Assembly (NCBI GenBank): GCA_001692895.1
Contig: KV748184.1
Coordinates: 1,240,001-1,304,000 of the forward strand
From: Cenococcum geophilum 1.58
Taxonomy: Eukaryota; Ascomycota; Dothideomycetes; Gloniales; Gloniaceae
Length of the DNA stretch: 64,000 nucleotides
Reading direction: 5' to 3'
The notes under the pieces were generated by a model, which was given only the letters and a program-made list of their open reading frames with translations, was not told the origin of the DNA and did no database searches. This document shows, one piece after another, positions 17,985-47,403 of the stretch; within the stretch, counting starts at the first letter, position 1; every line of letters begins with the position of its first letter. The position numbers were made by a program, and so were the translations under genes.

Positions 17985-18426
17985 ATTAAAACCGTAACCG
18001 TGGTAGTGATTGTATAATGGAGCCTTATAGTAGGAACTACGGTGGACTTATTAATGGGCTAGGTATGTAGGTATTAAATAAAGTTAACAACGTAATAATA
18101 ACTAGTGGAGTGGTTGCCCAATAGATTAACTCTAATTATATTCTAAGAATTACTATAAGAAAGGAACTATCTAGGTAGGGACTAAGGGTCCTTAAATACA
18201 TAACCGCACTCCTATAAAATCCTTCTTGTACGTGAAGTACGTGAGGTATGTAAGACGTTCCTTATAGGCCTCACAGAGCTCATAGAGCTCGTTATGTGAC
18301 CTCGGTTACCATCCCTCGTCATATGGCTCCACGGGTTCCATCCTAGACCGTGCTTGTATCAACCAACTAGCTTCTTCCAACTCCTCTCCAAGTAGTCGTA
18401 ACATCGTACTTAAAGCGTCCGTAACA
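17985..18426 (-). repeat. LTR-like repeat, right copy (starts TGTTACGG on the minus strand)
   Basis: On the minus strand it starts TGTTACGGACG at 18426, the typical TG(TTACGG) start of fungal Ty3 LTRs, and runs to just before the gag start codon. Its inner part matches 14356-14620. The first 190 bases (18230-18426) still hold many CA/TG words and are much less mutated than the rest. The pol relic on the right stops exactly at this LTR start. Confidence 0.6.
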
Positions 18427-23760: not shown

Positions 23761-26700
23761 CACTATAGTATTAAAGCGCTTTCTATAACTTATAGATTAT
23801 AGACCTTAGTCCCAATATTCTTTTAGAATATCTTTACAATAATTAAAGTAATTCTCTAGTTCCTATATAGAGTCCTTAGCAAGCCAGCCTAGCTATTTAA
23901 CTTTAAATTAAAGCTTATTCTTAATAGACTTATAGCGTAGTGTAGCTTTAACCTTATACCACTCGCCTACCACTTTAGGGTGTTTAATTGGGCCTAGACG
24001 GAAGTTCTTTTCCAGTAGTAGTCTATACTATAGCTCTAGTAGGTTTATATAAAACAATAGATATATATAGGCCATAAATAGGGGTAGCTAAAGATAATAG
24101 GCTAGCTTACTAATTCGTTCCTTAACTTAAAAGGGACCTAAATATCTTATATTAAGCTTCTTTAATAGTTAACAGGTCTTAATATTTATTAAACATAATA
24201 GAACCTTATCGCCTACTCTAAAATACTTATCCTAGTGCTTACGGTTATACTAAAGTCTCTACTACTCTTAGGCATCTTACAGGCTCTGCTTCACATACTT
24301 CTATTACTCTTCCCATTTCTAAAGGTATCTTTATACTCTCCAGTAAATATCCTTAGACTTCCCGGTAGGATCCTATAACTAATTATACAGCCTTAGCTAG
24401 TAATTATTAGGTATACTATTAAACCCAAATAGTTAGACGCTATAGGCAATCTAGATTAGTACATACTTATATAATACGTGTTACTTTAAATTATAAGCGT
24501 ACTCTATATACGGAAGTAGCTTATACTAGTTATCTTACTAATAGTTTAAATATATTCATAAGTAAGACTCTAGTTCCTAGTTCTAGCGTTCCATTTACCC
24601 ATCCGTTTATAGATAAAAAGCTATACTATAATAGTAGTCTATCTTTAAATAAAAGCATAGATCCGACCAGTATTGGCTTATAAAGACGCTGCCCCTATTA
24701 GTAATAATAGAGTGTAGCTAATCTACTTTAAGAAAGCATTTCTCCTTAATTAGGTTAGTAAGCTCTTATACATTAATCGTCTTATTAATAAAAAGGTATT
24801 AAATATACTTTAAAAACCTATTAATAAGTACAAGGACCAAATTATATATTTATCCTTAGCCATCTTTAAATAGCGGGAGATCTATAATAAAGTCTATAGC
24901 GTAATATTGCTATAACTTACTAGCGGGGGGAACTAATTTAAGTAAACCCTATAGCTTATACCTACGGATCTTATATACTTAATACTTCTCGCAATAGCTA
25001 ATATACTCCTTTACTTCCTAATTAAGCCTTAGCCAATAGTATTTACATTAAAGTAATTCCACTATTTTTACTTAACTATAGTGGCCGCCTAGAGGATTAT
25101 TATAATTCCTTATAAGAATCTTCTATCATAGATTTGCTTCTTATAGCACCCAAACCTTACCACCTTTACGCAGTAGGCCCATCGGGTTTAGTTCCTAATA
25201 GTAGCGCCTAGCAGCTTCCTTTCCGTTACATTTCCGGTCTACTTTTACATTAAAAATAGTATAAAAAGCGTCCCTCCGTTACACCTTATAGATAAAATCT
25301 ATTAACCTTTTAGGTGGTTCCTAAATAAAAGCTATTTTGTCCCATACTACTTTAAGTATAAGACTAGATAGTACCATAAATCTTACAACTCTTTAATACG
25401 CGTATATTAGGAAGGCCGCTACAAGGTTAAAGTCCTTTAATTATTATAGGGCTCCAAGTTCTAATTACTTTATAGCTTCGCTATTAGTTTAAGGTGATAG
25501 CTTAGTAATTAGGGATAGTGTATTACTAGGTTCTAAGAATATATTAGGGACGTCCTATCTAGGTATATTTAGACCCTTATTAGTAACGGACCGGGTACTA
25601 GCCAAAACGTCAGTAAAAACCAATAGGGCTTACACCGCCTAAGACTTAGTGCATAGAGCTATAGGTACTTAAGCATCCTATACCTAGAGCTTGTTCTATA
25701 ATATAGGGAGCAAGATATTTATTATCTATTTTCCTTCTCCCGTTTTAAAGCCTTTAGCATAGTCTAGCCGTTATAACGGTCTATTAGTAGGGTTGTTTTC
25801 CCCTAGCTTATATTTAATCTTAAAATTAAACTATATAAGCTCCTTTGCCTATCTAGCTTATTAAGGTATAAGCTCCTTTATAGTTATAAAGTAGCGTAGA
25901 TTATAGTAATCTAAAAGTATACAAGTAGTATAGCTCGCGTACTCAAGGTAGTATCGCCACTATTTAAAGCAGTTAACTATAGCTAGCAGTTCCTTATCGT
26001 GGGTATAATACCTAACTTTAGGTCCCTAGAATTTTCTACTATAAAATACTACTAGTCTTTAATAGAGCTAGGTAGCGTCCAGATGCCTATTAGGTTATAG
26101 TAGGATACCAATAAAGACAAAATTTAATATATTAGTAATTATCATTAATAGCTAATCTAGGTTAAAATGCCGCAGTAATAAAGCTTCCGTAAACTTTATA
26201 TAAAGTTCCTAAAAGGCCTCCTAAACCTTTCCGGGCTATAACTATAGCTTATACCATTTAGTTAGTCCCTTCTTAGTTTTCTTCCTTACCGCCTTTAAGC
26301 TTTTTACTCCTTTTTTACTCCTTAGGTTAGGTCTTAGGAAGCTTCTATAATATAGTTAAATAGGTATTAGGTAACGTCTAAGTAGTTATAAATAAAGCGC
26401 CTATAGAAATTAGTAAAGCCTAGGAACACTTAAATATCCTAATAGCTCTCTAGCTCCGGCTACTCCTAGATTATCTACACCCATACTAGGTCTATAACTA
26501 CACCTATAGGCGTTATAATATAACCTAGAAACTCAACCTACTTAGTGTTAAAGATATACTTTAACGCCTTAGCGTAGAGGCCCTAATTATCCAAACGTTC
26601 TAGCACTTCGCGGACGTGTTACTTGTGTTAATCTTTATCTTCTAAGTAGATCAAGATATCATCTAAATAAACGACGTATATGCGGTTAACTAGTCCCCCT

Positions 26701-27960
26701 AAGGCTCTGTAAATATATAATTAGAATATTATAGGCGTATTAGCTAGCCCAAAAGGCATCACTAAATACTTAAAGTAGCTATATTAGGTCTTAAAAGCGG
26801 TCTTCTATTTATCCCCTTCTTTAATACAGAGCCTATAATAGGCGTCTTATAAATCTAACTTTGTAAAGATCTTTACCCTAAATAGTTAATCCAGCATTTT
26901 ACTAACCAGTAGTAGTAGGTAACGGTTCTTAATTATAATCTTATTAAGACCGCGATAGTCTACATATAGCCTTATAGTTCCATCTAGTTTTAGAATAAAG
27001 AGAATTAGCGCACCTAACGGCGACTTACTAGGCCAAATCTATCCCTTTTCTAGTAAGCCATTAAGGTACTCCTATAGGATCTTAAGCTCTTTACGCAAGA
27101 GGTTATAGATAGGAAGGTTTAATAGTTATTTACCTTCTTCCAGATTAATTACATAATCATACTCTAAGTTTTATAGTAGAACTTTAGCTCTCCTACCTAA
27201 AAATACCCTTAGTAAGTCCCTTAGGCCTACTAGAATATTTAACAAATTAGGATCGCGTTTATCCTTTATATTATCGTTAGGTAGGTTCTAAAGCTCCCTT
27301 AAGATACTTATAGGCAGCGTTATACGCTATAGTGGTTGCTTATACATAGTTGCCACCATATATTATACCGTTTCGTACAGTAGCTAGTAAAGGGTAGGGA
27401 AGTCCTTAACGCAGCGCTTAAGATGCCGTAGCATACTCTCCGTATATTACTTAAGCTAGAGTAACCTATAACGGTTAAAGTATCTTATAAGATCCTCAAG
27501 ATCGCTACCTCCCTATAATATCTCCGCGACCTATCCGGTAGTTCCCTATAGGGTCTCCATTATAAAGGGGTTATTACCTATACTAGGCTTTATACCCATC
27601 TTGCTATTAAACAGGGGTTAGATCTAATACTCCTTTAAGTATAAAGCGTACACTATTTTACCTAGGGCTATATTCTCTAGGATGTCCTTTAGGCTTATTA
27701 GTAATATACACCCTTCTAAATCTTTATTATTCTACTATTTAAAGGCTCTAGTCTTAAAGCGTATCTTAAGATCTACTTCTACTAGCTAAGGGTATCTAAG
27801 GATAAGGTTATAACCTACAAAGTTAGCCGCCTAGAAGGGTTACGGGCTAACCACCTTAGTACGGTTATATATATCGGCCACTAACACTATAAGCTTATAG
27901 GCACTATATAGTTTAATTTAATACTTATTTAGGAAACCTATAATAGGTTTCCGCTATCTT
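23760..27960 (-). mobile_element. Chromovirus-type Ty3 retrotransposon relic (RT, RNase H, integrase, chromodomain)
   Basis: RT shows VVYLDDILIY at about 26650-26680, with the catalytic YLDD still intact. RNase H follows (VFYSRKF near 26030, then YYTHDKELLAIVNCF). Integrase has AIDFIIDLPLFKDG (about 24870-24900), IITNRGSVFISQYW (about 24700) and TDG-MERQN-ELE (about 24580). Next come the GPY/F motif as RYLGPF (about 24126-24148) and a C-terminal chromodomain-like block (FKVK-LGWLAKDSI and CKDILKEYWD, about 23800-23960). A chromodomain at the integrase end marks chromoviruses, whose integrases are known to aim for heterochromatin. Many stops are RIP-type. LTRs were not found, and the gag part at the 27.5-28 kb end is unclear. 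Confidence 0.85.
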
Positions 27961-27989
27961 TATAATAGGATAAGTTTATACTCTTTTAC

Positions 27990-28389: not shown

Positions 28390-30900
28390 TTATTATCTAG
28401 CGTTACTAATAATAAGTATATAGACACGGATAGCGATGGTAACAGCTATAGGACAGAACCGACTATCTTTAATAGTAATGCCGATAGTAATGCCGATAGT
28501 AACGCCGACTGTAACGCCAATAGTGGTATTAACTATAACGCTAATAGCATCGCTAAATCTAACAATGCTTGCGAAGCGCCCGCTTAAGCATAGCTTTATA
28601 AGGATTAAGATTATCTACTAGAATACTACCTTAAACAGTTAGAAGAGTTTAAGGAATCCAATTTTATAATATAGGACTACGCCGATGGCAGTATAAATCT
28701 CCTTGACCGTATTAAAGATTAATAGTATTAGTAAGTAATAACCTATTCTACGGCTTTCTCTTAGGCTTAACCTAAAGCTAACTATTTCTAAATACTGCAC
28801 CTATATAAGGAAAGACCCTAAGAAAACGTACTAAGTCCTCTTGCTTCGGCTGCTTTATAGCTTTTTTAATTAGCTCTTAAATTAGAAACAAGGAAAGGGG
28901 GGTAGGAAATAGTGCGGGATAAAGCTTTCTAGCTCGCTTGGTGTATACTAGAAGTACTATCGCCTTATATATAAGAGAGCAACTAGTAGGAAAATTGCTA
29001 GCAAATTAACCCGCTAGATATATAAGGTAATTATATTTCTAGTTAACCCTTTAGCCTAGTAAAGTAAGGTAGAGCTAAAATATCTTTTCTAGGTACTTTG
29101 GAAACTAGTAAAGAAATATAGCTTAAGTAATAAGAAGTAAGAAAAGCCCGTTATAGACGCAGAGGATCTTGCCCTAGTTTTTAAGACCAACTTAGTTATA
29201 ACGAGAAAGAGATATATAGTTGGGCAATATTGGATATAAGTCCATTTCTTACTATAGCTAGGCTTTTATACTATAAGCCGACCTAAAGCTCTCCTTAATT
29301 TATACTACCGATATATAATAGTTACACTTATTTATAACCTAGAAGGCGGGCCTTATAAGATCATGCTTAAGTTTATATTCGAATTCACTAAGGAATATCT
29401 TAGCATAAAAGAAGCGTATATTTTCTTTCTACCCTATTCCTCTTACCTTATGCTTATAGAGAACTAGTAATACTTTCCCAATTCCTAAGATTATCTTCAA
29501 CCCTTTACTCATTCTTAGCCCTTACGTCTTTCTCTTAGGCCTTCTCTTTACTAACTAAGCTTTTGTACCCCCTAATCTAATGTCCGTAAAGCAGCTTAGT
29601 AAGCTATATATTAAGCCTAGGCGTAATAAGTTACCGCTGCCACTCCGTTCAGACCTAGATAATATCCCTATATTTTAGTAATTAATTAAAACCCCCTACG
29701 GCCACAAGGTCTTACTTAACAAGCCTTTACTATACTTAACTCTTTTGCCCTAGATTAAGGACCTTAGCATAATTATGGGATTTCAGCAGGTTACGCGCCT
29801 ATATAGTCTCCGTTACGGCGCAGGCAAGGCATTTAATAAGAATAGTAAGTTCTATTATATAGAGCTAGTTCTATTAAAACCTTTCTAACGCCTATACTAC
29901 CTAGGTAATATAAGTAACGCCCTTCAGAACCTAATAATGCAGTATACTAACGCTTAAACATTCCTAAAGCACTACCTTCTGTAGCATATTAGCGTAGATA
30001 TATAGGCAATCGTTTAAGGCTTAAAGCCTTAAAAAAAGTTAATAAAAGTAGTATACCAAATAAGCCAATTAATTAACCCGCGGCGGCCACAGTACCTAAT
30101 AATAGAACAATCCTTATCAGTAAACGAGAACCCGCATATTTGTTCCTTAATTAAAGTTTAAAATAAGCTAAAGCTTAGCCTTAAGCACAAAACTATAGGA
30201 AGCATAGAATACCAAAAGCTTAGCTAAGAAATTATAAATAAAAGGCAATATTAGAGAAATGCGCTATTAGAAAATATTAAAAAGAATTAGAACAATAAAT
30301 AAGCTATAATTAATATTAAGTAGCAACTTTCCGGGGTTATATTTAGCGAGGATATTAAAGCAACCTTAAAATCCAGTAATAATAGATCGGTTAAACATAA
30401 ACGCCTTATTAAAGTAATTATGACGCTACCTAGCATATTACTAAAAGATAAGATACGTAGACGCAATAATACTATTAATGCGGTTGTAGATTACTGCAAT
30501 ATTAAGGAGGGTAGAGTATACTGGCTAAGTTATTGCTAGAGATAGTTTAGGATAGATATCGCCCTTGGCCAAGTTAAGATTAAAAAAGATACTAAGATTT
30601 TAGAAGCGGCTAAAGCGCTAGAGAGGGCAAGGTTATTCTTATATAAGGAGAAAAGACTAAAAATATGCTTTATCTACCTCGGGAATAAAAAGCTCACAAT
30701 TAGTAAGCGCATATATAAGTTTTATACTCCAGCTACTGTTATAAAACATTTCTAAGGCAGTTATCTCTCTAAACTCCTATAGTAGGGTAAGATTAGATAT
30801 AACGTTTACGAAGTAACCCTTAAGCATAAAATGTATCTTTAAAACTATGCGCTTAGTATACATAGGACCTTTTCCTAGTTATTACGCGCTTATCTTATTA
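28390..30900 (+). pseudogene. DUF3435 tyrosine recombinase relic (Starship captain family)
   Basis: One forward frame is followed for 2.5 kb. An Asn/Asp/Ser-rich start has SNAD repeated (28450-28570). Next come EYYLKQLEEFKESNF and DYADGSINLLDRIKD, typical of this family, then TRKRYIVGQY, RPKALLNL, LEGGPYKIMLKFIFEF, LSPYVFLLGLLF and GFQQVTRLYSLRYGAGKAFN. After an intron at 29845-29904 (GTAAGT, CTAAC, CTAG) comes NISNALQNLIMQYTNA, a stop, then TFLKHYLL. The last two blocks are the tyrosine-recombinase core: the Arg of LRYGAGK and the Tyr of KHYL remain, while the expected His and Arg before it have become Tyr and stop. Then SLSVNENPHICSLIK follows. Captains move Starship giant transposons by site-specific recombination; this one is inactive. 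Confidence 0.8.
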
Positions 30901-31390
30901 TTCTTTACCACTTTTTATTTTACTTTAGTCTGTTATTATCTAATTCTATTATAGTATTTAATAGAATAGATATAATAACTAGGATTTTATAATTTGTCTA
31001 AGAGGGGTAATAGGTAAGGTAAGAGATAAGGGCTCCTCTTTAGCCTTACTATATAAGCCTTACGCGTTATAAAACAAACTAAAACCAATAATCATAGACT
31101 AGAAAACGCTGCCTCCTTATATTATAGCTTAGCATTTTAACTAAGCCCTATAAAGCCTTAATCTAAGCTATATTAGGTCGGCTTAACTTTTCCACACCCA
31201 ATCTTTAATCCTCGCGTTCACTCGCATCTTGCTTTCTTCCTTATACTTTTCTCCCTAGTTATTTCCTTATTATAAGACGCGCCCGATATATTCTTAACCT
31301 CCCTATATTTATTTACTATTATACCGTCCTTATATACTAGCCTCTTTAACCTCCCCTCCCTACCTACCTACCTACCCTCCCAATATAGCT
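30900..31390. other. Gene-free stretch between DUF3435 and FunK1 relics
   Basis: A+T-rich with pyrimidine-rich plus strand near 31200-31380. No frame could be identified. It should contain the 3' end of the recombinase relic and the promoter of the kinase relic. Confidence 0.4.
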
Positions 31391-33850
31391 TTTAGCGCAT
31401 TCGCTCGTAATAGCAAATCTCTCTAGATTAGAGATAATTAAAACGAACCCTATTAGGGAAGGACTAAATAGCTTTCTTAATTTATTTAACTTAACTTATT
31501 AGGATCTAGGCATCTCTAGCTCTCTAAACTTATTGCGCCAGATAAGCAATAAAGGTAATTATTAATTTATCTATTATAGGTTCTCTCTAATATATATAGG
31601 GCTTAAAAATCTTATAGTTAACCTTATCCTGGCATTACAGAACCTTCTCGCTGCTTAACTACTCCCATCTAGCGCTGGCCGCGGTACTCTTTATAGTAAC
31701 CTTCTCTAACTTCTCCCTTTAGTTAATTCTAATGACTTTTAATATTAAACGGTTCACCCCTCTCCTAAAAACAGTTATTAATCGCGAATTAGATAAGGAC
31801 GTTTAGAGTAATACTATTACCACTATAATAGAGTCCACGCCTCCCCCCTAACTGCTACTACTCTACATTTAATAAACCCCACATTTACGTAATATAAGCA
31901 GCTTCACTAACTCGTTTAAACGTAGGGAATACATAGATTATATTCTAAAGAAGGAGCTAGGCCCTTTTTATATGGGGATTCCTAGCTTTTATAAAGCATT
32001 CTTTAAGGAAGTAAAAGGTCTTAAAGAGGCAAGCGCCGCCGTTTTTAAAAAATGCAAAAAAGGGAACAATCTACTATACGCTAAGGGCGGCTAGCATAAC
32101 TGGCCTAAAAGCGCAGAGCAAGATAATGTCCTAGAGTGGTTTAGTAGCTTAATTAAATTAATTTTAGGCTTTATAGAGGAGTATAGGTCCGCCCCAAAGA
32201 TATAATAAACGCTTATTATATATACTAAGCAGCCCTTATAAGGGTCTATAGCAAAGCAAAAACTAAACATTAGTTTTATAGATAATCCAATAGCTAGCAA
32301 AAGCTTTTAATGCTATTAGTCGCATATACTTATACTAGGAGAGCTAAAAAGTAATCTAAACTCTAATATACCCTTATAGGTATAGTTTAATTTAGGGAAA
32401 TACGTAAGAGAAGTCTTCGCCACTTAAGACACTCATTACTTTGTCTTAGGCTTTACCCTTTATAGATCTATTATACGGCTATAGAAGTATAACCGGGTAG
32501 GAGGCATTATATCATCACTATTCAATATTAATAAAGACGGACTACAATTTACCTTAGCGATATTAGGATTTCTCTAGATAAAAAAGGAGCAGCTTAGGTT
32601 TAACCCTACTATTCTAACATTAGACGGCAAATAATATATTAAGGTCGTGCGCAATAATTAGACCGAGCGTCTTATCCTTAATAAATCTATAAAGCGGGTA
32701 CGCTATATTGCCGGTTAAGCAACTACTTACTAGAAAGTATACCGTAAGGGGGACACCTCTAAGATACCCCTTATTATTAAAGACTTGTAGTAGTACCTAT
32801 AGCGCAAGGAAGAAGGTAAACTACTACATAAGGTAACGGAGAAAGAAGTAGTCAACATAGCCAGGTACTATCACCACAAAACAGTTTATATGGGCGGTAA
32901 AGAAGATAACATTTACAATAACGTCCGTAAGGGGCTAGATATTATAAGAGCGACAAACTATAAGCCAGAAAACTTAATAATGCCTCTAAAACCGGCTGGA
33001 GTAAAAATTAAAAAAGGCCAAAGTTCTAGTAGAAAGAGGTTATCCAGCTATACTAACGCCCTATTACCGCCTAGTAAGCGTATATATTCGGGCTCTCCGC
33101 CTAAAGGCGGAAGGCACCCTACAACCCTAAATTAAGTATATTAATGCGTTATTACTAAAGACTACGGAAAGCCTCTTTATGAGGTAAGCTCTTAGGCTGT
33201 AATACTTACTACACTAAAGGGTAGCATTAAAAAATACGAGTCTTTATATACGCGGGCCGGTATTATCTAATATAACATTTTAATAGGCAACCTTATAATG
33301 AACGAGGAAGACAACAATCCTTCTTAGCCGGCATTCTTAATTAACTTTAATCTTGCGATTAAGGAGTAGTAAGAAGGGCCTTTAGGAGCGCGGGGCAAGA
33401 CCAGCATAAGAGCGTTTATAGCGATTAGAGTACTCCTAGGCAAAATACACTTAGCTTAGCATAATCTTAAGTTGTTCTTTTAGGTGCTATTCTAAATATG
33501 CATTCACTATAATAGACCTAATAAAAAAGGTAATATTGTTAATAGGTTTAATAAGTGGAATTCTATAGATATGGAAGAGCTAGCTAAGATAAAGAAAGGA
33601 GAAGTAGATAATAAAGGGGATTTTCTTAAGAGTGCAGACGATAACTTTTCACCGTACTATTAGCCACTAATCCCTTAGGTTAATAGATTACAGAAGGTAG
33701 TATTTCTAGGCAGTGAGAGGCAAAAGGGAAAGGATAAAAAACTTCCTTCTTAAATAAAGGAGGTGCTTTAGGAAGCAAGGAAGGATCTAAAGGTGCTAGT
33801 AGAGTAGATAGAATAATATTTTATTATCTTATACTTTTCTATATACAAGT
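31390..33850 (+). pseudogene. Fungal-type protein kinase relic (FunK1 family)
   Basis: Long forward frames cover the FunK1 layout: HILILGELKSNL, YVREVFAT, YFVLGFTLYRS, NRVGGIISS and FNINKDGLQFTLAILGFL in the N-terminal part. These are followed by VVNIARYYHHKTVYMGGKED and RKGLDIIRATNYKPE at 32850-32970. The catalytic loop reads YNILIGNLIMNEED where HCDI-x-NNL is expected (about 33262-33315), and the DFD-type motif reads LINFNLAI (about 33338-33361). Both Asp residues have become Asn, as RIP would do. After that come RAFIAIRVLLG, FWVLFWICIHYN-like and FSPYY-PLIP. These kinases form large families in fungi; their roles are poorly known. It is inactive. Confidence 0.8.
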
Positions 33851-36460
33851 GAAGTTTTATAAAGATTTAGGCGGCGAAGGCTAGGTAGCAGCCTTAGTCG
33901 AAACGTATATAAAATAGCATAGGGCGAGTAAACTGTTCTATAGTTAATATATTATTCCTACTTATTTATACGCTACTAGATATGCGATTATATTTAAGTT
34001 TACTATAAGTACACTAATCTCTAATATATAGTGAAAGCTTAGTGCATAAAATACCATAAGACCTAAAAAAGATGCCTAATAAATATGGCTGATAGATAGT
34101 TTTTTTTAGGTGATCGCAAAGAAATATAGTAAAGATACTAGCAAAAACTATAGCAAAAGCCCGGCCAGTTATTGAGATTACCATATAGTCTTACGCAGCT
34201 TAAATTTAAACGGGTTAAGTACGGCGTAACATTTAAGAATATTAGGCAGAAAATGTAGAAGGGAGGCTCTTTAAAATGGCTTTTAGAATCTAGTTTCCTT
34301 ATATAGGCATAGGCCTACTCTAGGAATACTTAGTACCTTTTATAAGCTTCATTTTTCTATAAGTAAATAAAACGTGGCCCTATATAAATTGGGGATATAG
34401 TAATTTATTAAGCCCTTCTTAACAGAAATTGTATTGTGTCGGGACCACTAGTTATTAAAACCCTAGGTTAAAAGTAATATTTTTTTAAGTATTTGCCCCT
34501 AAGTAAATAAGAACTATAAATTTATAGGCAAACACCGCCGCTTTTAAAGGCCTATACGTTAACGTCGCCTATAAAAGCACAGTTCCTATTACCGTTTTAT
34601 TTCTAGCTTTAACCACTATTCCTCTCTCGCAGCTTTATGCCGTCTATACCACCTATACTATTAGTCCTTTTCTATTCCTTCTACAGTTCTAGATATCCTT
34701 TAATAGTAAAACTATATATAAACTACACCCCTTTGTTTTAATTTAAATACTACTACTATAACATAAAAGATATTACCACGCCTTTAACTATAGCAAGCTT
34801 AAACATTCCTTCCTTATAGCGATGTATAATGCTTAAAAGGCTTTACTAAAATCCTCTACATTAGGTAAAATAGAGCCCCAACTAGCAATATAAATTAACT
34901 TATACCTTTTAGCTTAGTATACATCAGCAAGTCAGTCCTTTACAATTAACAGGATCAGGCAATTGTATTTTAGGCCACCACAGCTAATTAAGCCGCCGTT
35001 TAATAATCTATAAGGATTAACTTATAGGATCCTTATTACGGTAAGCAACTCCGGCATTTAGCTCTACGTACTACCATCACGCCAGTGCTTTCCCTGCTCG
35101 AGATAGTCATATAGTGAAAAACCTAGGTCAGTAGCGCAATTTAACTCCTAGATTAGACAGCATTATCTTCTAATCGCTTTAGCGTCTTAAGTTATACGCC
35201 TATGTCGGCGAGCGGAGCTACCCAACATATTATAAGCTGTAAGGATAAAGCCTAAGCAAAGTCTCCCTGTGGGTATAGCAATTATATAATCTAGACCTCT
35301 TAATAGCAGCACTACCGTGCAGCACAGGGAGTATTAGGGAGTAAGTACGGACAACCCGTTTCTACTATAGACTATGAAATAAAATAGCAAAGTTTAAGTA
35401 ACCCCTTAAAGCCATCCTATACCCAAAGCCGTTGGCTAAATCGCTATAATAGTGCTATAAGGCGCCGAGATAAGAATTTTCTCCTAGGTTGCGGCAGATC
35501 CTATATCTTATCGTATTAAAGCAAATAGGGTTAATAGCTAATACATTAAGGCCAGAATCCGAACTAGTCTACAAGCTAACAAGCTATAAGACAGCTAAGT
35601 TTTAGTATAACAGAGTCTCTCCAATAGCAGAGTAAGTCCTTAAAGAATCCTAAGGCAGCAGGCTCAATTAGGCAACAATAATTAAGTAGGCAGCAGACGT
35701 GTTAGTAATACAGTAATTATACCAAAGAGCTCCGCTCAATACTACTAGGCCTAACTATACGACAATAGAGTGGGCAGCAGGCGCGTCGGTTATATAGCAA
35801 TCTCTAAAGAGCCCTGCCTGCTACTATTAAGTCTAATTATACAATAATGAAGTAGGCGGCAGGCGAGTTAATCCTACAGCGGTTACACTAGAGAGCTCCG
35901 CTTGCTACTACGGACACGGCATCCTTTATTTATATATCGCCAACTTTTAGGCATATAGGCGACCTAACATATAGAGCTAGAAGCATCTATAAGACTTTAG
36001 TCACTACCTATCCGCCACTAGCGTACACCGCACAAATATTAACTTAATAGTAGATCTGCGAGCTAAAGCGCTAGGTCTAAGGGACACTTAAGCCGTATAA
36101 TAAACTACAGCATACAAAATCGAATTTAAACCCAGTATATAGCGCCTTTACCTCCATAATATTTCACTTAGATAACAAACGTCGCCACTAATATACTTAT
36201 CTCCAAAGTATAAGTGTTAGTGGCTGGAGGCTATATATACCATCTGGCAAGTCTATCTGCATTAGCGAGCCCTAAAAAGGCGATTCCAAATTATTACCCC
36301 AGACTGCGAGATATAAAGCTTCTGCTTTCACTAGCAGTTTTTAAATATTACCCCCTTATAGTGTATATCTTTTATTTACTAGAATACATTTTATACTAGA
36401 GTCTAGAACTACAAGCCCCAATTATATATTTAATACTATAGGTTAGGCCTAAGGACCCTA
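33850..36460. other. Unassigned, with a milder-mutated part and diverged repeats
   Basis: 33.85-35.0 kb is strongly mutated with no readable family. Around 35.0-35.9 kb mutation is milder and CGAGCGGAGCT-like words appear in both orientations. A 61-residue ORF at 36214-36399 has no match I recognise. Confidence 0.4.
35690..35925. repeat. Degenerate 75-85 bp tandem repeat, inverted relative to 49.33-49.79 kb
   Basis: Three imperfect units each contain a block like AGAGCTCCGCTYGCTACTA and a GGCRGCAGGCG block (near 35735, 35812 and 35898). The same words, reverse-complemented (GCGAGCGGAGCTC ... CCTACCGCC), recur at 49.33-49.79 kb. Confidence 0.6.
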
Positions 36461-38850
36461 ACCCCTACTTTGACTTATAAACTATATATTAACAACTTTA
36501 TAGAGGCCCTTATAAATATACGGAGCGAAAGTCTTAATCATCCCGCCTCTAATCCTAATAGTGAGACTAATAGTCTTAATTCACTAGAATGCAGTAGCCT
36601 AAGGACTATAGTTGGATCTAATAATAATGATCCTCCCAAAACAAAGCGAGAACTGTGGTTAAAGAAGTTCACTAAGCTTAACCCTTTAATCTATCCCAAG
36701 GAGACGACTTCACAATACCCAATAAATGCTGAGCTTCATTTATTACCCAACGCTCCATCTCCTCGCTCTTTAGTAGAGCCAATAATTATATAAGGATGTT
36801 TAACTTAGGCTAGAACCATTACCGTTAGGAATTAAATGTATAACCAGTACCTCTCGCCTATAAAAAACTATCTAACCTTATTATATAAAAGCCCTTAACC
36901 TATATTATCCCAAAAACCAATTTCCTATTTACGCGCATTATCGGGTTCCCGTTTACCCACATCTTCCTAATTATTAAGTTTACCCTAATAAATAAGATAA
37001 ACATTTATAAAAAAGGATAATAACAAACTAATTCTGTTAAGGAGCAATAACGTCTAGTAGAAGGATATTACAAAGGAATTCCCAGATCGAACCCAGGCAA
37101 GTTTATAGGTTTACTATTACGCTTAGTTAATGGAGAAGGTAAAGAAGACTAAGGATATTAAGGGGCCTAATGTATTTAATATTGAAGAGGCAATATAGTA
37201 GCAACCGTTTATAGTTATACCCTAGTATCCGCGAAACAAAATACACCTTTTTTTAACCAACTAATGCTATATCTTAATAACTTAGCTCCATTTAATCGCA
37301 GGCCTTTAGTAGAGTTATATCTCTTAGCGCTATCTAATTCCTAGCTAAAGTATTTAACTAAAGTACTCTACAAACGATAGAATACTTTAGCGGTAACTCT
37401 ACCCGCACTAGCATATTGTCCTCTTTTATATTACTATATATTTAACCGTCTAATCCCTTATATACTATATTAACAGCGTTATAAATTAGTTACTAGCTAA
37501 TAAAGCACCTCTTTTCAAGTATAGGTGTGCAGTACTAATATTCGCAGATATGTTCTTTAAGCAGGTCTAGTATTAACGTCTCCGATATAGAGAGTTGCCA
37601 ACAATAAGACATTATAGGCAAGGTAGGGAAGTGTACGGATCTTAATAAAGTCATTTCTTATATAGAACTTTTAAAAGTTCCTAAGCTATACAGCAAAAAA
37701 AGGATTAGGGTATAGGCTATTACAAAGGCTACTAGGCGACTTAAGGTGTCTAATATAAGCTAGGTAAGCGCCTAGGGTAAGCTAAATAAGCGCCTAGGGT
37801 AAGCGCCCAGGGTAAACTAGGTGAGCATTTAGCGTAAATAAGTAAGCTACCAGCTAAGTAAAAGGCAAGCTACGGCTTTATCTAGATTAAACCCAAGGCG
37901 TGTTTCTATAAGTTACACTTTTAGCTATTTAACGCATCTTTAATTAAGTTTATTATTTTACTTTAGAGATTATATTCCCGCTAACTATACTCTATTTTAT
38001 TAAAGCACCCAATAACTAGTTAACCTATTTATCTATATCATTTAGTCTCTCCTTAATCTTAAGGACCTTCTTTATTACTACCTCTATCCCACAATTATAT
38101 CGCCTAGCCGTCTACTTAAATGTTTTGTGATTAAAATTAAGAATTAATATATTATAATCTAAATCGCTAACGCTAGTTTTAATATCCTATAGTTAACACG
38201 CGAAATTTTCCAGCTCCTTTTATTCTTTATTAATTGCTTTATAATAATCAGAATGGACATACCTACTTTGCTATTACTTAGCTCTAAGTTATTAAACCTA
38301 TTTTCTAAGGTCTTCTAAGGTCTTTACTAATATCTTTTATTACTACGCAAATGCTTCTAGCCGCGCCTTATATATATATTGCCACTTTATAAGACAATCA
38401 GCTAAAGTAGCCCTAGCACCCCTCTTTAGGTACTGTTGTACGGCTTATATTATATTATAAAAAGGTTTAAAGACTTTTTTAACTTTTCTACCTTACTTTA
38501 CAGGATGCAGCTATAGCGGCTAGTTAGTTAAGTGGATTTGTTAAGATTGGACGCTAGCTTACATAGTAATATGCGACATGACTAGTAGAAGGATTATAAA
38601 AGTTCTTAATTAATATATAGCTATTAATAATAGGGCTTAGTTATTAAAAAGTGGGAAGAGTAAAAACTTATATATCTTATACATTAGCCGCTCTAATACC
38701 CCCTATAACATTTTAGGCACACTAAGTTATATCTTAACCAATTCTAGCGTCTATACACGTTATACTACAATTAACTAATTTAGCGCTGTATCTAAAGTTA
38801 AAATAAGGCCAAAAATATCTTCCACTTCCGCCTTATTATCCTTTCAGCTA
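36460..38850. other. Unassigned stretch with one longer open frame
   Basis: A 107-residue forward ORF (36470-36793) is rich in Asn, Ser and Pro and continues in poor form to about 37240 (NFLFTRIIGFPFTHIFLII). It could be part of a degraded gene; no family was recognised. A short tandem repeat at 37757-37846 is listed separately. The rest shows only stop-rich frames. Confidence 0.35.
37757..37846. repeat. Short tandem repeat (about 20 bp, AAGCGCCTAGGGTAAGCTA)
   Basis: Four to five imperfect copies of AAGCGCCTAGGGTAAGCTA occur in a row, with G-to-A and C-to-T differences between copies. Non-coding in appearance. Confidence 0.65.
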
Positions 38851-39910
38851 CCCAAACATATAGGATTAGGCACGACGGGCCCAGTAATTTAAGTAAAAAC
38901 TCGTCCTACTATACCGTTAAACCTATAATAAGAGATAAAACCCAAAAACTGTACTTTACTAAGAGAAAATAGCGGCTGCGAAGAGGTTCTATTAAGGAAG
39001 TCCTAAGCTATATCTAACTAGCGTTCTGGGTTTTATAAAGTAAGGCTAGTTAGTTACTATAAAACCGTTCCGGGCTCTATTAATTACATTATAATACAGC
39101 CAACAGCCTTTATATTAACATCCTCTAAATAAAAAGCCGCTTAAAATATACTTTCACCTATATTTGCTGCTTAACCGTTAGCTTTTTATTTTAGGATAAC
39201 CGTTAGGTACTTATTAATCTTAATTTCCCCACTCCTTAAAATTAGGAGATTTTGGCAATTTAATAAGCTATAAATAATATAAATGCTATAGATAAATAGA
39301 AGTCCTTAGATTACCTATATTTAAAATTAGAGGCTAGTTTTAAATAGAATAGCTATATTACCTCCTTACAGACTATAGCAATTTTAAACTCTGCTAATAT
39401 TCTAGAAGGGCTAGCCTAGATATCTACTAACAATACGGATAGGCACTCGTATATTAGATATACCATTTCGCCCTCTTTAAATACTTCTAGAATATTAACA
39501 ATATTAGGGTAAGGTAACTTTAAGCATTCTAAACCATTTACTGTCTTACTTATCACTCTTGTCTTAATAACCACAATAGGGAAAGTTGGCTCTATTTTAA
39601 AGGCAATAACCATAAATCCTGCCTAATCTTCTTTAAGTAATTTGCGGTAGTAGTTTTACAGACTTCCTAAAACTATAAGGGTCTCTAGTTCCTTTAATAG
39701 TAAAACAGTTTTTTTACTATCGGCGGTAGATAATAATAAAAAGAGCCCTAAATCTCTATTAACTTTAAGCGGAACATAGAACGGTATACGCTTACGCTTA
39801 TAAATATACTTTCGTTTTACAAGTATATTAGGCCGATCCTAATCCTCGTTTATAGTAGGTTTAATCATTTCAGCGTTTTTTTTATATACTAGGAATTTAG
39901 TAACCCGTCT
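38850..39910 (-). pseudogene. Protein-kinase-domain relic (not FunK1)
   Basis: On the minus strand from 39910: VLLLKELETLIVLGSL, then KIEPTFPIVVIKTRV (the VAIK-like lysine region), then LECLKLPYPNIVNILEVFKE and GEMVYLIYECLSVLLVDI (open at 39613-39416). This is the classic N-lobe and hinge of a Ser/Thr kinase. Further down are IAIVCKEV, KANG-AANIGESIF, NIKAVGCIIM-LIEPGTVL and NPER-LDIA-DFLNRTSS, like the C-lobe of kinases with a degenerate activation segment. Stops fall at Gln or Trp positions. Probably a kinase or pseudokinase gene that moved with a repeat. Confidence 0.7.
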
Positions 39911-40159
39911 TTATAAAGACATTTTTCTCTTTATTAAAAAATTATACTTTACTATAATATATATATATACTTCTTCTAAAAAAAGAATTCTTAAAATAAA
40001 ATAAATATTAGAATATTATATAAATTTAAAACAGCTCTTTTAACACTATATATAAAATATCTAAAAATATATACATTTATTTAGGGATCTAGTTAAAAGG
40101 CCATTAACGCAGTAGAGTATCTATATTATCTCCACTTTAAATAAAATAAGAGATTCGGC

Positions 40160-40397
40160 GTATCTTATAGGCTATTTCGTCGGGAATTGGATTTAAGGAC
40201 TAAGTATTTCCCCCTAGCCTATTCATATCCCCCACAAAAACCAACCCTTTTTTTATCTCCCCTATACCTCCTACACCTATCCACTTAAAACGCTCTCCAT
40301 TGGCAATAAAAAAATTATACCTAGTATTCGCTAAATCCACTAAAGTAGATTTAAATCTTAGAGACAACGCTAAGAATATATAAAGCCTGCGATTCAT
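40160..40397 (-). pseudogene. Unknown relic (MNRRLYIFLALSLRFKS...)
   Basis: A 65-residue stretch is open: RRLYIFLALSLRFKSTLVDL, then RYNFFIANGERFKWIGVGGI and KKGLVFVGDMNRLGGNT. After one stop it continues as SLNPIPDEIAYKIRRISYF. The conserved look (few substitutions, stops only at Gln-like codons) points to a real former gene. It lies between the kinase and DUF3723 relics on the same strand and may be the C-terminal part of the DUF3723 gene. The family is not known to me. Confidence 0.4.
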
Positions 40398-40959
40398 ATA
40401 AAGATATAGAATAATTAGCTTTTCCTAAATCATTTCTAAGAACGTAAAGTCATCAGGTAAGGGTATTAGGTCATTCTTACTTAAGGGTACGTTAGTAGTT
40501 GGCCTTTAACTAGCTTCTAACTTAGGGTTCATTATATTCTCCATATTACGACCTAAAGGGTTCCCTATACTAGGGCCTAAGGCTCCTAAGTTAGAGCTTA
40601 AGGGAGGCTCTAAGTTAGGGTTTAAGAGAGTACCTAGTAGCCTACTGCTTAGTCTTTAAATAAGTGGCTCTAAAGGTTTATTAGGAACCCCAAAAAAAGT
40701 ATGGAATATATCTCGCTTAATATAAAACGTTAAGGTATATTGCTTTACCTAAATAGGCTGCTAACTGTTTATATTTTTAATAAATAAATATTTCCTATTA
40801 GTAATATAGGATTGTTTAAACGGTCAACCACATCAGTATATTTTTAGCTGACGAATGGAGTCATTTATAAGAAATGGGAAACTTGTATAAGAATAGCGAC
40901 TTAGTATATCTCTAATTATTTAACAAATCCGCTGCACTTGCTAAAGTATAAGACTCAGC

Positions 40960-42540
40960 TTAAGCTTAAAGAGAGTTTTAAGGTAAGTTATGCTAAGAAA
41001 GTCTTCTACTATATTCTCTATATAATTCGCATATATTAACTAAGTAATCTTATTAAAGCTAAAGCCTAGTCTTCGTGTAAGGAATCCCAGCTGTTCCTAT
41101 AATATATCGCATAGCTTAACCTCTAGTTTAGGCTTACCAAGGTCCTTCCGGGGTATTATACTAGTAAGTTAAAAAAAGTGTTATATAGCAAAAAGCTAAA
41201 TTTACAGATAGCCGAGCCTAAAGTTTAATTCCTTTAAATTACTTTCTTCTATAGTATAAACGCTTTCTGCTATTTATATACTTATTTAGTCTTAATTTAA
41301 TCCCAGGTAGGCTTATCCTATAGCTATCCACACTATACCTTTAAATTTATTTGGCAGAAGTCTTTTAACCACCTTAGAGCACGGTTTAAGATATTTTATA
41401 TCCTCAAAAAATGTATATAGAGAAGGAATTCGTCCTAGGAAATTCTTTAGGCGCTCTAAGATTCCGCTTTATACTTAGTAAGAAATAACGGCTAAAAAGA
41501 GTTAACTATCCTTTATAAGATTTTTAATCTCTAATCTATTATGCAACAAACCTCAGGGAATAAGAAGCTTAATAAGAAAAACTATATAAGAATCTAAGAG
41601 AGGTATAAGGGCTTCATTATTATTAAGTATATATAACCATAAACTATAAATATAGTTAAGATGGTGAATGAGCTCCTACACAATATTAGTTATAAATTTT
41701 AGCCGGCTTTAATTATTATAATTACCTCATCGCATTTTAAAGTAAGGATATAATGCAAAGTGCCCAGCTAAAGTGCCAGCTAAAGCCTAATAAGTGGAAG
41801 AAGGTTATTAAATGCATCGCGGAGACGCGGCATTTTTTTAAGTAGTTTTTTAATATCCTTTTTTTTGCTTTCAGAAAGCCTAGAAAGCCATTTATTTTCT
41901 TATATAAGATCTGCGCGACGCTAAAAATATCAAAGGTATTAAAATATATCGCCGTCACAGAATAGGCGTTTATTTAAATATTCCGTTTGAAGTTCTAAGA
42001 TATAACTCAATAAAAGGCCTTTATAGATTGGTTTTAGATTACGTTATTCTATACCTTAGGTTAACTTACTATTAAGATACAACCTTATAACCTACCACTT
42101 TTTCCTTAGGGCAAGGTAAGCTTTACCTACTTTAATATAATATTAACTATATAAGCAAACCACTATAGAGTTATTATTAAGCAGTAGTTCTGGCGGCTCG
42201 CTTTAACAGTCTAAAAGACCTGCCTATATTAAGTTAGACTTACGCAGACCTTTATTAAGGGTCTCTTAACTAATTAGAGCTAATATATAGTATTCTGGCT
42301 CTAAGTAGTAGCAGCCTTCTATCTTAAAGATATTAATAAGTCGGAGAACGTTTTCCCAATTAAGGGTCTAAGCTCCTTTAACCTTCTAGTCCTTAAACTT
42401 TAGAAACAATAAGTGGATCTTTACATCCCCATAAAAGTAACTCTGTTTCTCGTTAAAGAGAGATAAGTCGCGCTCTAACTTAGAATCTATCGCCTTTAAC
42501 TTTAGCCTTTCTAGGTATATTAAAGCATTTTCTAGTTAAA
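40960..42540 (-). pseudogene. DUF3723 relic (Starship-associated family)
   Basis: From 42540 downwards the minus strand reads LENALIYLERLKLKAIDSKL, then LNWENVLRLINIFKIEGCYYL, EPEYYILALIS, then EPPELLLNNNSIVVCLYS-stop-YYIKVGKAYLALRKKW. The layout matches the DUF3723 N-terminal domain (IF-x-x-xGC, EPPEL, CLHG-x-HR-x-x-A, KWWVV). The HR positions are now Tyr/Tyr by RIP. It goes on with LFCDGDI, NKWLSRLSESKKKDIKKLL, then LGTLHYILTLKCDEVI. The function of DUF3723 is unknown, but the family is known to recur in Starship elements. The lower end is less certain. Confidence 0.7.
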
Positions 42541-42559
42541 ATAGGTTTATTTTATTTTT

Positions 42560-43200
42560 ATTACAATATATAAATAGCTTTTTTATTTTTTTATATCCGT
42601 TATATTATACTACGTACAATAACATATACCTTTAGACTAGGGGTTTACCAATCTCTAGTAAAATATTAGGTTACCAACAACTAATAGGTGGTTTAAAAAT
42701 AGTAGAAAAGACTATAAGAAATTAAGAGATCCTAACGCCTATCTATATCCTATTTATAGCTTATTTCTATCCTTTTGCTCTATAATATCTATCTACTAGG
42801 AGCCTAGTAGAAGTTACCTCCTTCTAAGGATCCTGCTGTTATTAGCCACTTTCTCACAGCTATTCCTGTCCTATCTAGAAATAGAAAAAACGCCTCTCTT
42901 CCTTTCTTTATGCAAAATAGTTTTTATAAAGAGAGAGAGGGTCCTAATTGCCTTTACATCTTCTCTCTCTCTATAAATAGCTTTTTTTGCCTTAAATACT
43001 AATATTATTAAAACTATTCTATTATAAAGCTAATATAAAGATTCCTATAAGAGTATAACGCCTAAACTTAGCTATATTTAAGTACTCTTGCGTACTTACT
43101 AAATAAAGTAACAAATTCTCTTCTACTTAATAATTATGTCTTGTAAAAACCACGCTACGTGGCTACAAGTGGCTAGATCCACTAGCTTTATAATTAATAA
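42560..43200. other. Short intergenic relic with GA/CT hairpin
   Basis: Divergent space between the DUF3723 and patatin relics. At 42921-42977, TTTATAAAGAGAGAGAG is matched by CTCTCTCTCTATAAA, a purine/pyrimidine hairpin. No gene was seen. Confidence 0.45.
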
Positions 43201-46200
43201 CACTTCTTAGCTAGGCTATATTATTTAAGCCTTACCGAACCCTACTTTACAGACACCGAGTTTACTTCTATTCCTAGGTAGAAGGAGTAAAAACATTACT
43301 TTACGGCAGCTATTTCCACACAACAACTTTAAGAGGCATAGCTCTAAGGGAGTCTTAAATATCCAAATTAACACATCTTTAACAGCGTATAATAACCCAA
43401 TCATCTTTACAGACGGCGATTTTACTAGCGCTATCCCATCTTACCTAGCGCCTACGTCCTGCTATAAAAGCACCACTTATATAGTAGCTTGGCAGCCCCC
43501 TAGCGAACAGTCAATTATTAACGCTATATTTGCTTGTATCGTACTACCTTTTATTACAGTTCTTACCGTATTTATTAATAACTTTAATTCTATTAAATAA
43601 ATTCCTACCTTTTTTAAACAATGGGCTGATATTAGCAGTTATATAGGTGTCCTCCCAAGGACCAGCCCTAGTTTAATTGTTATTTCTTTATAAAAGAATA
43701 TAATAGAAGCTAGAGCCGTTTACATAAGTGCTTATACTATAAAGATTTTCTTACAAATTGCCGCGCTTGAGATAGACGGCTCTCTATCTCCTCTGGCAGG
43801 CCATAGGCCTTTAAAGGAGGAAATACTAAGACAAGTTAACAAGATTAGATATTATTTACGGCTTAAATACCAATTATTCACTATATATTACCTCAATGCG
43901 CTCTATTAGGCAGCGCTACTATATATAGCCACAACCGCCATAGAGCCCTTTAATATCATTTAAGCAACTCAAAAGTATCACATATGCGAGGATCTTAGTA
44001 GTCACATAAAAACCATCATAAGGCTTAAAAGGGAGGGGAAGATCCTCTACGAAGACGTCACCAAGTTCATTGCATTAAGTATTTTAATAGATACATATCC
44101 TCTACAAGCGTATAGTAAAGTCACCTTCTTTATACTATTTCTTTTAACTAACTATTTTACTAGATTTTACATTAAGGCAAATTTACCGTTTACTATATTA
44201 ATTTGCATTTATTTATATGTTATTAGAAGTCTTTAATAAAAGCATAGGAGAGTATTAGAGCCGCTAAGCTAAAAAGTATATCTATAATCTTTTCGAATTA
44301 TTACAAAACATACCTTCTACAAAAGCCCGAGCTCTAGATATTCGTTTATATTAGGCCTATATTAAAACAAACAAGATATACCTATTCTATTACTTTCGAA
44401 CTCCTTAGCATATACTTAGTTACGGCCACACTATTTGCGATATCTGCATTTAAATATTTAGCGATGCAGTAATAGGAGTAGAGTATAAATACACTATTAA
44501 TGCCTGTATTCTCTGTAAAGCAGTTCTATCTACAGGCTCTCTAACTACAAAGCTAAAGCCGCCTACTTATAGTATCCGTATCCTTGGAATTAACGGTAGT
44601 AGCACAAAAGGCATAATACCTCTAGAGTTCCTCTTATAAACCCAAAATTTACTTAGGTCCTACGTTATCTAGGACTTCTTTAATATAGTTATTAGCACAA
44701 GCTTTAGTAAGTAATCTATCTATTATCCAATACGGCGCTTATAAAAATAGGCGGCCTAAAAGCCTTGCTTATATTTCTTTACAAATAAGACGTTGCCCGG
44801 TGTAGCGAAACATTTAACTAAACCCTTACGCAATTTTTTAAAAGCTAAAGGCCTACATCCAAGTCATTCCTCTTACGTTTGCGCGGTTATCTCCATATAT
44901 AGCTTTCGGACAGTCGATACGACGCTGCGGCTTTAGAAAAATACTTTAAAAATATCTTTGGGCCAACAAGACGCTTAATAGATCCGATAGCTTCGGCTTA
45001 CTTAGGTATAAAGGTGGCCGTAATAGCCACTAATATCTTAAACGCGGCACCTTTCTTATTTTCTAATTATAACCCTTCTATAGAGAAGACGAGTAGTTTA
45101 TCTAATAATAATGCTAGTGAAGTAAATAATATAACTAAGGCTTCTAGTAGGCTATAAGCACACTAAACCGAAAGAGAACGGTATTAAAGAGATTCCGTAC
45201 GTCTAGCAAGTATAAGTTAACCTTTAATAAACTAGGCTTCTTACGCTAATCACTAAATAGTACTAGGGCTACCTCTACCGCCCCGGTATATATATTTAAA
45301 GCCCTTTAATCTTCTCTTTTACTGCCTACTAATTAATTAATAAGGTTATTCCAGGCTGCAGAACTAAAATTATTCGGCGCCTTTTAAGATAGGGGATTAA
45401 AGCACAATAATCCAATAAGCCTTAGACTTTACGAGAGTCGTTGCATTTAGTTTAAAGACTGTAGGGCTAATATAGTCCTATCTTTTAGAACTGGCACTAT
45501 AGAGAGCTAGTCGCCTTAAGCTCCACATTTCAGGCATGTCCTTAACAATAGGTTTATTCCGAGACTCTATTAATTATAGCTTTCTTTTTTTAATAGCAAA
45601 AGAATATAAAGGGATCTTACTATACACTTAGACGACAATTTAAAAGCGAACTACTTTCATTTTAACATGAAGCTAGAGGAATTAATAGCCATTAATAATA
45701 CTTTAATTATAGCTAAGCTGCGGGAGATAGTACAGATACAGCCTTACGGAGCTGCGGAGCGTCAAAGATTGGTCCTATTACTCTTAGCTTTATCCTTTTT
45801 TTTAAGCTAGACTACGCCCCAAAATTTAATATAGGATTTTATAGATATAAGGGATCAATTCGCTGCCGAAACTAAATTGGCGTAATTACTAACACGATTA
45901 GTTATATATTCCCTTCGGCAATAGAATTCGTTACTAATTTAATCACTTTAGCAACCTTTAAGGGTACTTAAGGTGTTTATACCTTATGCCTAAGGTTTAA
46001 AAAACCAGTAGTGTTTTATATAAAACACCCTTCTAAAACTATTATAATGTACCTTAGAGTAGACAAAGACATTCGTATTAGAATTAGTGGGTTTCTATAA
46101 AGTATGTCCTGGTTTATTTAGCAACAACAACTTAATACTCCTTTTAGGTTCCTAATTATAGTATACCTAGGTCGGTTGCTTGCTCTCGCTATTACATAGC

Positions 46201-46350
46201 AGAGATTTCCTTAAAAAAACGTTTTAGTTCCCTAGGAGATACTACGCGGAAGCAGACACAACTTCGATAGTTATAAAAATGTCTATAGCAATTTACCCAT
46301 ATTATTTTTCTGTCTTTAAAATTTATATTTTATAAAATTATATTAAGAAT
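43200..46350 (+). pseudogene. Patatin-like phospholipase relic with RING-like N-terminal region
   Basis: N-terminal frames include LKREGKILYEDVTKFIALS, SQKVYLQSFRIITKHTFYKS-like and a zinc-finger-like segment (YGHTICDICI ... INACILCK, about 44420-44530). The patatin start follows: ILGINGSSTKGIIPLEFL, where DGGGxRG is expected (44592-44612; Asp to Asn, Gly to Ser, Arg to Lys). The nucleophile elbow reads STSFS for GTSSG (44694-44708), with the Ser kept. An intron at 44707-44760 (GTAAGT ... AAATAG) leads to GLKALLIFL. Then RYDAAALEKYFKNIFGPTRR, FLFSNYNPSIEKT, DRGLKHNNPISL (Asp of the Ser-Asp dyad kept) and HFRHVLNNRFIPRLYQSF. Such enzymes hydrolyse lipids and recur in Starships. Inactive. Confidence 0.85.
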
Positions 46351-46502
46351 AAATGTCTATTTATTTTTATAATAAATTAGGCTAAGCTATAAATAACCTT
46401 AGTAAAAATATTTTGGAGTATAGCTTACTCTAAAGCACGGCAAATTTAAGCGTAAGGAATATTTTCCCCTATTTATTAAAATCCTATAGGGGATTTAAAG
46501 CC

Positions 46503-46772
46503 ATACTCTAGAATAACCCGTGCTCTAGAATAACCCGTACTTTAAAATAACCCATACTCTAAAATAACCCGTGCTCTAAAATAACCCGTGCTCTAAAATA
46601 ACCTATACTCTAAAATAACCCATACTCTAGAATAACCTATGCTCTAGAATAACCTGTGCTCTAGAATAACCTATACTCTAAAATAACCCGTACTCTAGAA
46701 TAACCTATACTCTAAAATAACCCGTACTCTAAAATAACCCGTGCTCTAGAATAACCTATACTCTAAAAGAAG
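46503..46772. repeat. 17-bp minisatellite, about 16 copies
   Basis: Fifteen full copies plus a partial one of RTRCTCTARAATAACCY run without gaps from 46503 to about 46772. All differences between copies are G/A or C/T transitions (GTG to ATA, TCTAGA to TCTAAA, CCC to CCT), as expected if identical units were hit by RIP. It lies just after the patatin relic. Confidence 0.9.
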
Positions 46773-47403
46773 TGCTCTAGAAATATTATTCCGTTAGTAT
46801 TCGCGCTTAGCATCTAATGTATTTCTAATATAGAATTTATCCTTAAAGACAACCTTATATAGCTCTTAAATATAAGGAACTAATACCTTATAGATAGGGT
46901 CCGGAAATTAGCCCTACTAAATCCTTTCACTAATAAGTCCCCTTAATTATATCTTCCTCTAAAATCAATTATATCTAAATTATAGATAGCTTTTAGCATC
47001 GATAATAAAGATATAGATTAGTAATATAGAGCTAAGGGTATTCTTTACAGATATTTAATATACCGTCCTTTACTTTACCTGCCACTATAATAGAGAAATA
47101 CATTACTCTATACTTAGAGGTTAGTACCAAAAACTTAAATAAATAACTATATTTTACTAATAATAATTATATTTCCCAATAAATTATTAAGGGTAGTAGT
47201 AAAGTAATACTAAAGGTAAAGTAAGGGGCGGCTTTAAAGGGAAAGGACTAAAACTTATAGCAGCTGGGCCCCTAACTTTGAGTAATAATATATCTGTACT
47301 AATTTAAGACGTCGTTTTAGAACGCGGTCTTTAATCCCATAACTCTGTTCCTCTTTTAACTTATTTTTAGGATTTAGCTCTAGAGACCGCCTAATAAGTA
47401 GGG

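Follow-up and report, generated by a model that had tools for sequence, protein, structure and literature searches.

The window, the whole stretch of 64,000 nucleotides analysed here, is positions 1240001–1304000 of contig C9 (KV748184.1) of Cenococcum geophilum, and was searched against the 177,193,698 bases of the genome in 162 contigs. Its first nine 1-kb bins are of normal composition; by 14 kb the DNA is AT-rich and carries a RIP signature, which continues to the window end. The features described below are, in window positions:

24034–27983, minus strand: high-copy repeat with Gypsy retrotransposon domains at 24.0–27.0 kb (RVT_1, RNaseH, H2C2, Tf2-1 SH3), part of the target and not of the element
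27984–27989, plus strand: TTTTAC, target-derived repeat at the 5′ edge, after which element-specific sequence begins (occupied versus uninterrupted target copies)
27984–64000, plus strand: very probably the 5′ 36 kb of a Starship-type element (single colinear BLAST block to C52 and C5)
28390–30890, plus strand: captain relic, DUF3435 tyrosine recombinase with a C2H2-like end and stops (PF11917, homologues, alignment, stop counts, a relative’s model)
32299–33501, plus strand: Pkinase_fungal (PF17667) relic (Pfam E 8.5e-74)
40689–42313, minus strand: DUF3723 (PF12520) relic in two pieces (Pfam)
42624–42972: dispersed repeat of ~350 bp between the DUF3723 and patatin-like relics (at least 27 other loci, 82–88% identity)
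43229–46350, plus strand: patatin-like phospholipase relic (one homologue; right limit from the earlier reading)
46430–46837: 17-bp minisatellite of about 16 units directly after the patatin-like relic, a repeat found inside the element
59616–59981, plus strand: JmjC domain relic (Pfam E 6e-8; nearest solved structures RPH1 and KDM4)

The captain relic gives two plus-strand Pfam matches to DUF3435 (PF11917), at 29,162–29,440 (E 8.9e-12) and at 29,904–30,494 (the best stretch; E 1.7e-70 for the frame), where a sequence-only reading of this DNA had placed a DUF3435 recombinase (28.4–30.9 kb, plus strand). It has 17 homologues, the best at 45%, and in their alignment a tyrosine replaces the histidine of the relatives’ QHAD motif. 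Past alignment column 300, the C. geophilum protein P0012 and the window captain agree at 210 of the 286 residues compared (73%), while seven other captain relatives are 37–48% identical to the window captain in the same region. A search of the captain profile against solved structures by sequence gave no match. The model of the nearest captain relative, which is of low confidence (pLDDT 61.7, pTM 0.44), resembles Cre and XerH and thus a Cre/Xer-like fold, and from this model the captain is predicted to have a tyrosine-recombinase fold. The 212–418 DUF3435 match is interrupted by stops in all seven copies of the element. Genome-wide there are at least 165 DUF3435 matches; the best-scoring match pair marks a possibly intact DUF3435 gene at G000:C49:752543–753905, whose first match is interrupted by a single stop and whose second is free of stops.

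The cargo relics named in the sequence-only reading fared differently. The Pkinase_fungal match at 32,299–33,501 bears out kinase relics between the captain and DUF3723, and the DUF3723 gene read at 41–42.5 kb on the minus strand is matched there by PF12520 in two minus-strand pieces, 42,313–41,720 (E 6.9e-30) and 41,678–40,689 (E 2.4e-50). For the patatin-like relic the evidence is divided: a homologue from Mytilinidion resinicola that carries PF01734 (P0018) is 43% identical over 86% of the 346 residues used, the match covering residues 75–420 of the frame, whereas no patatin Pfam match was obtained in the window or in two other copies (three frames each). The later part of this frame contains what we take to be the patatin motif. 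The JmjC gene proposed to follow the patatin-like relic is matched at 59,616–59,981, and also in two other copies; the chromodomain proposed to accompany it was not found in the window element by a Pfam scan with incomplete frame coverage. The scan took in 28.2–37.4 and 43.0–46.6 kb on the plus strand only, 37.4–43.2 kb on the minus strand only, and 57.6–64 kb on the minus strand in one of three frames, with ~51.6–52.7 kb outside it; beyond the window it covered the segments L013 and L023, not L014, L022 or L024. In the scanned frames there was likewise no Pfam match to a ferric reductase or NLR, in a scan both incomplete and weakened by RIP. L013, a part of the element beyond the window, gave matches to kinases and weak ones to F-box and SRF-type domains, and L023 gave no Pfam match. 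A 279-codon stop-free frame, Lys/Glu-rich and of low complexity, lies amid stop-ridden DNA at 51222–52058 on the minus strand. The kinase block (31042–33930) was found at 29 other loci among the matches listed (38 of 387 candidates scored), 8 of which have a 3′-end-like match 10–29 kb downstream on the same strand, as if modules were shared between elements.

Comparison by BLAST of the window and the next 40 kb with 80 kb each from the C52 and C5 loci enabled the extent of the element to be defined. Window positions 27,983–76,129 form one block with C52 (48,276 columns, 90.6% identity) and one with the C5 copy (48,256 columns, 91.2% identity), and the block between C52 and C5 extends over 63,785 columns (90.9%) up to a common 3′ end at 63.7 kb; outside these colinear blocks only shorter repeats are common to the compared loci. 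Because the captain, kinase, DUF3723, patatin-like and JmjC relics lie inside one colinear block, they form one unit of ~63.7 kb. That the DUF3435, DUF3723 and patatin-like relics belong to one element, as had been proposed, is borne out by the recurrence of this block at loci with other flanks; the relics share it, and do not sit in separate elements with their own ends. The captain lies on the plus strand ~400 bp inside the 5′ edge at 27,984, and so does stand at one end, pointing inward. The proposed left limit, 28,390, has to be moved ~400 bp further left to this edge. On the other side the window copy continues to C9:1316129, 12,129 bases beyond the window end, other copies being ~63.7 kb long. 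Of the two element ends that were to be looked for, the left is thus at 27,984, and to the right of 64 kb homology stops at C9:1316129 without a 3′ end. We hold with high confidence that this element is a Starship-type transposon of ~63.7 kb, one copy of which is represented in the window by its 5′ part.

The same captain also occurs in other settings. Other ARRANGEMENTS with the same captain were met at all eight of the additional captain loci sampled, where the DNA behind the captain departs from the 64-kb element, in six cases at ~31,031 in a TAAGG-like repeat and in two at ~31,222. Two continuations can be told apart by eye among the ~31,031 loci, one present at four of them and one at two. 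Such departures, the presence of the kinase block at at least 29 other loci and the at least 165 DUF3435 matches in the genome would all agree with a piling up of separate repeats, namely a DUF3435 element standing alone and genes of the DUF3723 and patatin-like kinds, in an AT-rich repeat graveyard, and captains are outnumbered by solo DUF3435 genes (PMC12134995, excerpts). However, the order and spacing of the relics recur over 48–64 kb at differently flanked loci and one whole copy, C5b, has an empty site, which makes a chance pile-up extremely unlikely and favors a single transposon.

Copies in the genome were sought with a 5′-end query of 517 bases (best 40 of 78 candidates scored) and a 3′-end query of 601 bases (best 40 of 146 candidates scored), so that copy counts are lower bounds. 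Seven of the 40 listed 5′ hits have a 3′ hit at most 100 kb downstream on the same strand. Six loci besides the window carry the 5′ end, the DUF3723–patatin block, a 58-kb block and the 3′ end in this order: two on C5 (283,487, plus strand, spanning 69.8 kb; 2,098,852, minus strand, 63.7 kb) and one each on C52 (63.7 kb), C6 (72.9 kb), C31 (90.2 kb) and C45 (69.5 kb). The 3′-end match covers 599–601 of 601 bases in five of the six, and 411 of 601 in C45, where the edge is not anchored. Of these four markers, the window copy retains the first two, the 5′ end and the DUF3723–patatin block; the 58-kb block and the 3′ end are not among the matches listed near the point where its homology stops. 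The element is thus present at at least seven loci of one genome with different flanks, and further partial copies occur on C9, C11, C15 and C17. A candidate full copy on C19 was rejected, its ends being 95 kb apart, the two inner markers absent and the two flanks, by eye, not a matching pair. Minus-strand matches to the 3′ end and the 58-kb block on C9 had suggested an inversion of ~0.86–0.89 Mb that split the window copy; this was ruled out by C9:2203171–2202043, which matches 75,001–76,129 and runs through the break. Since the minus-strand site overlaps the window copy and passes its break point, it is another copy. From C9:1316130 on (L014 from base 2130) follows ~3.5 kb of GC-richer sequence (0.43–0.54 per kb bin).

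All 16 of the element 5′ ends that were read begin at element positions 1–3. The sequence TTAC stands at 13 of the 14 correctly anchored 5′ edges (of 16 read; anchoring judged by eye), the exception being C5b with TTCC, and at 7 of 7 anchored 3′ edges (8 read), all with TTTTTTACTAA(A/G)T. TTTTAC is present at both edges of C52, C6 and C31, while the 5′ edges of C5b (TTTTCC) and C5a (ATTTAC) are inexact. In all seven anchored 3′ flanks TTAC is followed by TAA(A/G)T, which looks like target sequence, because uninterrupted target copies read CTTTTA(C/T)(T/C)AAAT at the edge. This reading was obtained at the 5′ edge of the window copy, where the target repeat (27,384–27,986; best 40 of 441 candidates scored) is interrupted: five target-repeat copies were fetched, two of which print in the other orientation at the edge spot, and the three uninterrupted copies displayed read so there. 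The form TTAC(N7)A, judged by eye, fits four of the seven anchored 3′ flanks and not the other three. The best terminal inverted repeat in C52 agrees at 15 of 18 bases, as good as or poorer than 227 of 20,000 random pairs, and that in C5b is equaled by 2,354 of 20,000; this imperfect repeat is not convincing.

The edges and flanks also bear on whether the copies arose by segmental duplication of one dead region and not by transposition. The colinearity of the copies and their near identity apart from RIP are compatible with such duplication, but similarity begins and ends at the same places with TTAC-type edges, and other copies of the target repeats run through the target sites without a break. 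Among the 16 outer 5′ flanks (~235 bases each), the only pair alike is that of C3 and C25, and none is common to full-length copies. The left and right flanks of the complete copy C5b adjoin in an uninterrupted paralogue on C52, that is, in an empty site. Segmental duplication is accordingly most improbable, and transposition of a discrete element best accounts for the copies. Separately, on C3 (L047, C3:4543310–4543650, bases 188–256) a 5′ end lies directly behind ~70 bases of 3′-end sequence (85% identity), a head-to-tail junction that looks as if one element had taken another’s edge as its target.

The repeated unit, 63.7 kb with cargo, is above the 15-kb size criterion for Starships and is unlike a small Crypton, which at a few kb comprises only a recombinase. 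The naming of the captain’s relatives as C2H2 finger proteins speaks for a tyrosine-recombinase element of another kind, such as a large Crypton. However, PF11917 is the family to which captains belong, and the element resembles Starships in size, cargo and edges (PMC12506042 and PMC12134995, excerpts), so that a non-Starship element seems very unlikely. The element is real, now inactive and of Starship type; its copy number is unusual and its record of RIP exceptionally clean.

The sequence-only reading had described the relics as RIP-mutated, and the indices bear this out throughout 28–64 kb, in each of the 36 1-kb bins: TpA/ApT is 1.37–2.05 and (CA+TG)/(AC+GT) 0.29–0.78, compared with 0.48–0.92 and 1.22–1.42 in the first nine bins of the window. 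Three copies compared pairwise over 48.1 kb differ by 4,367 transitions and 11 transversions, 4,036 and 19, and 4,274 and 12, respectively, and a fourth copy by 619–654 transitions and 0 transversions over ~8.5 kb. Rates of C>T change are 0.20 at CpA, 0.13 at CpG, 0.036 at CpT and 0.026 at CpC; of the C/G sites common to the other two copies, 8.9% are mutated in C9, 5.7% in C52 and 10.0% in C5b, in line with RIP having struck each copy separately. Since thousands of transitions, commonest at CpA, accompany 11–19 transversions, RIP struck copies that were almost identical. The element is dead but young, and the term “fossil” applied to it earlier is apt for the first property and not for the second, given how few transversions (11–19 per pair) stand beside the more than 4,000 transitions. 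An old fossil that had undergone ordinary mutational decay in silent chromatin would share the many stops in the frames and the AT-richness over ~50 kb; ordinary decay would, however, have left many more transversions than were counted, and great age is exceedingly improbable for copies that RIP mutated while they were young.

In the mechanism that we propose, the captain tyrosine recombinase would have placed the element at sites resembling ~TTTTACTAA(A/G)T, partly inside other repeats, and copy number may have risen within a short time. RIP, acting on duplicated DNA, would then have mutated the copies, introducing stops into captain and cargo and ending movement, with the DUF3723, patatin-like, kinase and JmjC genes as probable passengers. 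Captain-driven transposition by a cut-and-paste route is taken from the Starship literature and not from this analysis (PMC12134995, excerpts).

The window element shares with Starships the inward-pointing 5′ captain, a size of ~64 kb, DUF3723 and patatin-like passengers, short edge repeats and a TTAC-type target; a captain as first gene and DUF3723 and patatin-like accessory genes are typical of Starships (PMC12506042, excerpts), in which captain and accessory genes are sought (PMC12134995, excerpts). Unlike typical Starships, one ship occupies seven loci of one genome, all seven captains have stops, and the incomplete scan of the window element gave no ferric reductase or NLR match. RIP-killed Starships are already known: Prometheus of Paecilomyces variotii and Spiromastigoides was likewise immobilized by heavy RIP, there linked to a second copy (PMC11623301, excerpts), whereas the many near-identical copies in one assembly here make it possible to measure both the RIP spectrum and how young the copies are. 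More than one locus per genome is likewise found for Sanctuary of Bipolaris sorokiniana (PMC12506042, excerpts), and more than one related ship per genome, with Starship proliferation, in Gaeumannomyces type B, a gene-poor, heavily RIP-mutated Starship being described from a lineage other than the proliferating one (PMC11905480, excerpts); in contrast, the present case has at least seven loci of one ship, RIP-mutated. The predicted target of the Phoenix-family Janus of Aspergillus fumigatus contains TTACTA, as here, the likeness being one of target sequence; Janus cargo is noted for a chromatin-modification domain, and the window element has JmjC and no chromodomain found (PMC12153272, excerpts). 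In Verticillium, most repeats inside Starship regions are without a RIP signature (PMC12289983, excerpts). In the excerpts of the literature naming both, no Starship is reported from Cenococcum geophilum, and a partial survey, outside which the founding Starship papers lie, contained no burst of this size in one genome.

A seven-locus Starship with stop-interrupted captains is a natural record of the limit on multiplication and of capture by genome defense, and with transversions almost lacking, RIP can be quantified with hardly any contribution from other mutation. A tentative wider reading, possible though short of probable, is that one captain lineage acted as a high-copy transposon (at least seven near-identical 64-kb ships plus other arrangements) and helped to bloat the 177-Mb genome, and that RIP, with a probable sexual phase, was very recently active in a fungus without a known spore-producing stage. 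Very recent RIP activity is argued from the copies having had almost no transversions between them when hit. RIP marks the sexual cycle in Neurospora, where this is established; in Zymoseptoria, mutation at CpA is described outside sex too, so that the link between RIP and sex is not strict. Recent RIP in Cenococcum geophilum is relevant to the question of sex in this widespread ectomycorrhizal fungus, for which spore-producing structures are not known while polymorphism and a mating-type locus suggest sexual reproduction (PMC5023957, excerpts).

Several features of the window lie to the left of the element. An intact host gene at 3–2021 on the minus strand has its best named match in Zopfia rhizophila (89% identical), compared with 40% for Glonium stellatum and 43% for Lepidopterella palustris, which is odd for a Cenococcum host, the latter two being close relatives of C. 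geophilum (PMC5023957, excerpts). An open frame at 12339–12815 on the minus strand is by eye BED zinc finger-like, perhaps part of a hAT transposon remnant at 10.5–12.8 kb. The stretches 14498–14564 and 18167–18233 form a repeat pair, 3.67 kb apart and 79% identical, and the sequence at 15.9–18.4 kb recurs near two other copies of the element.
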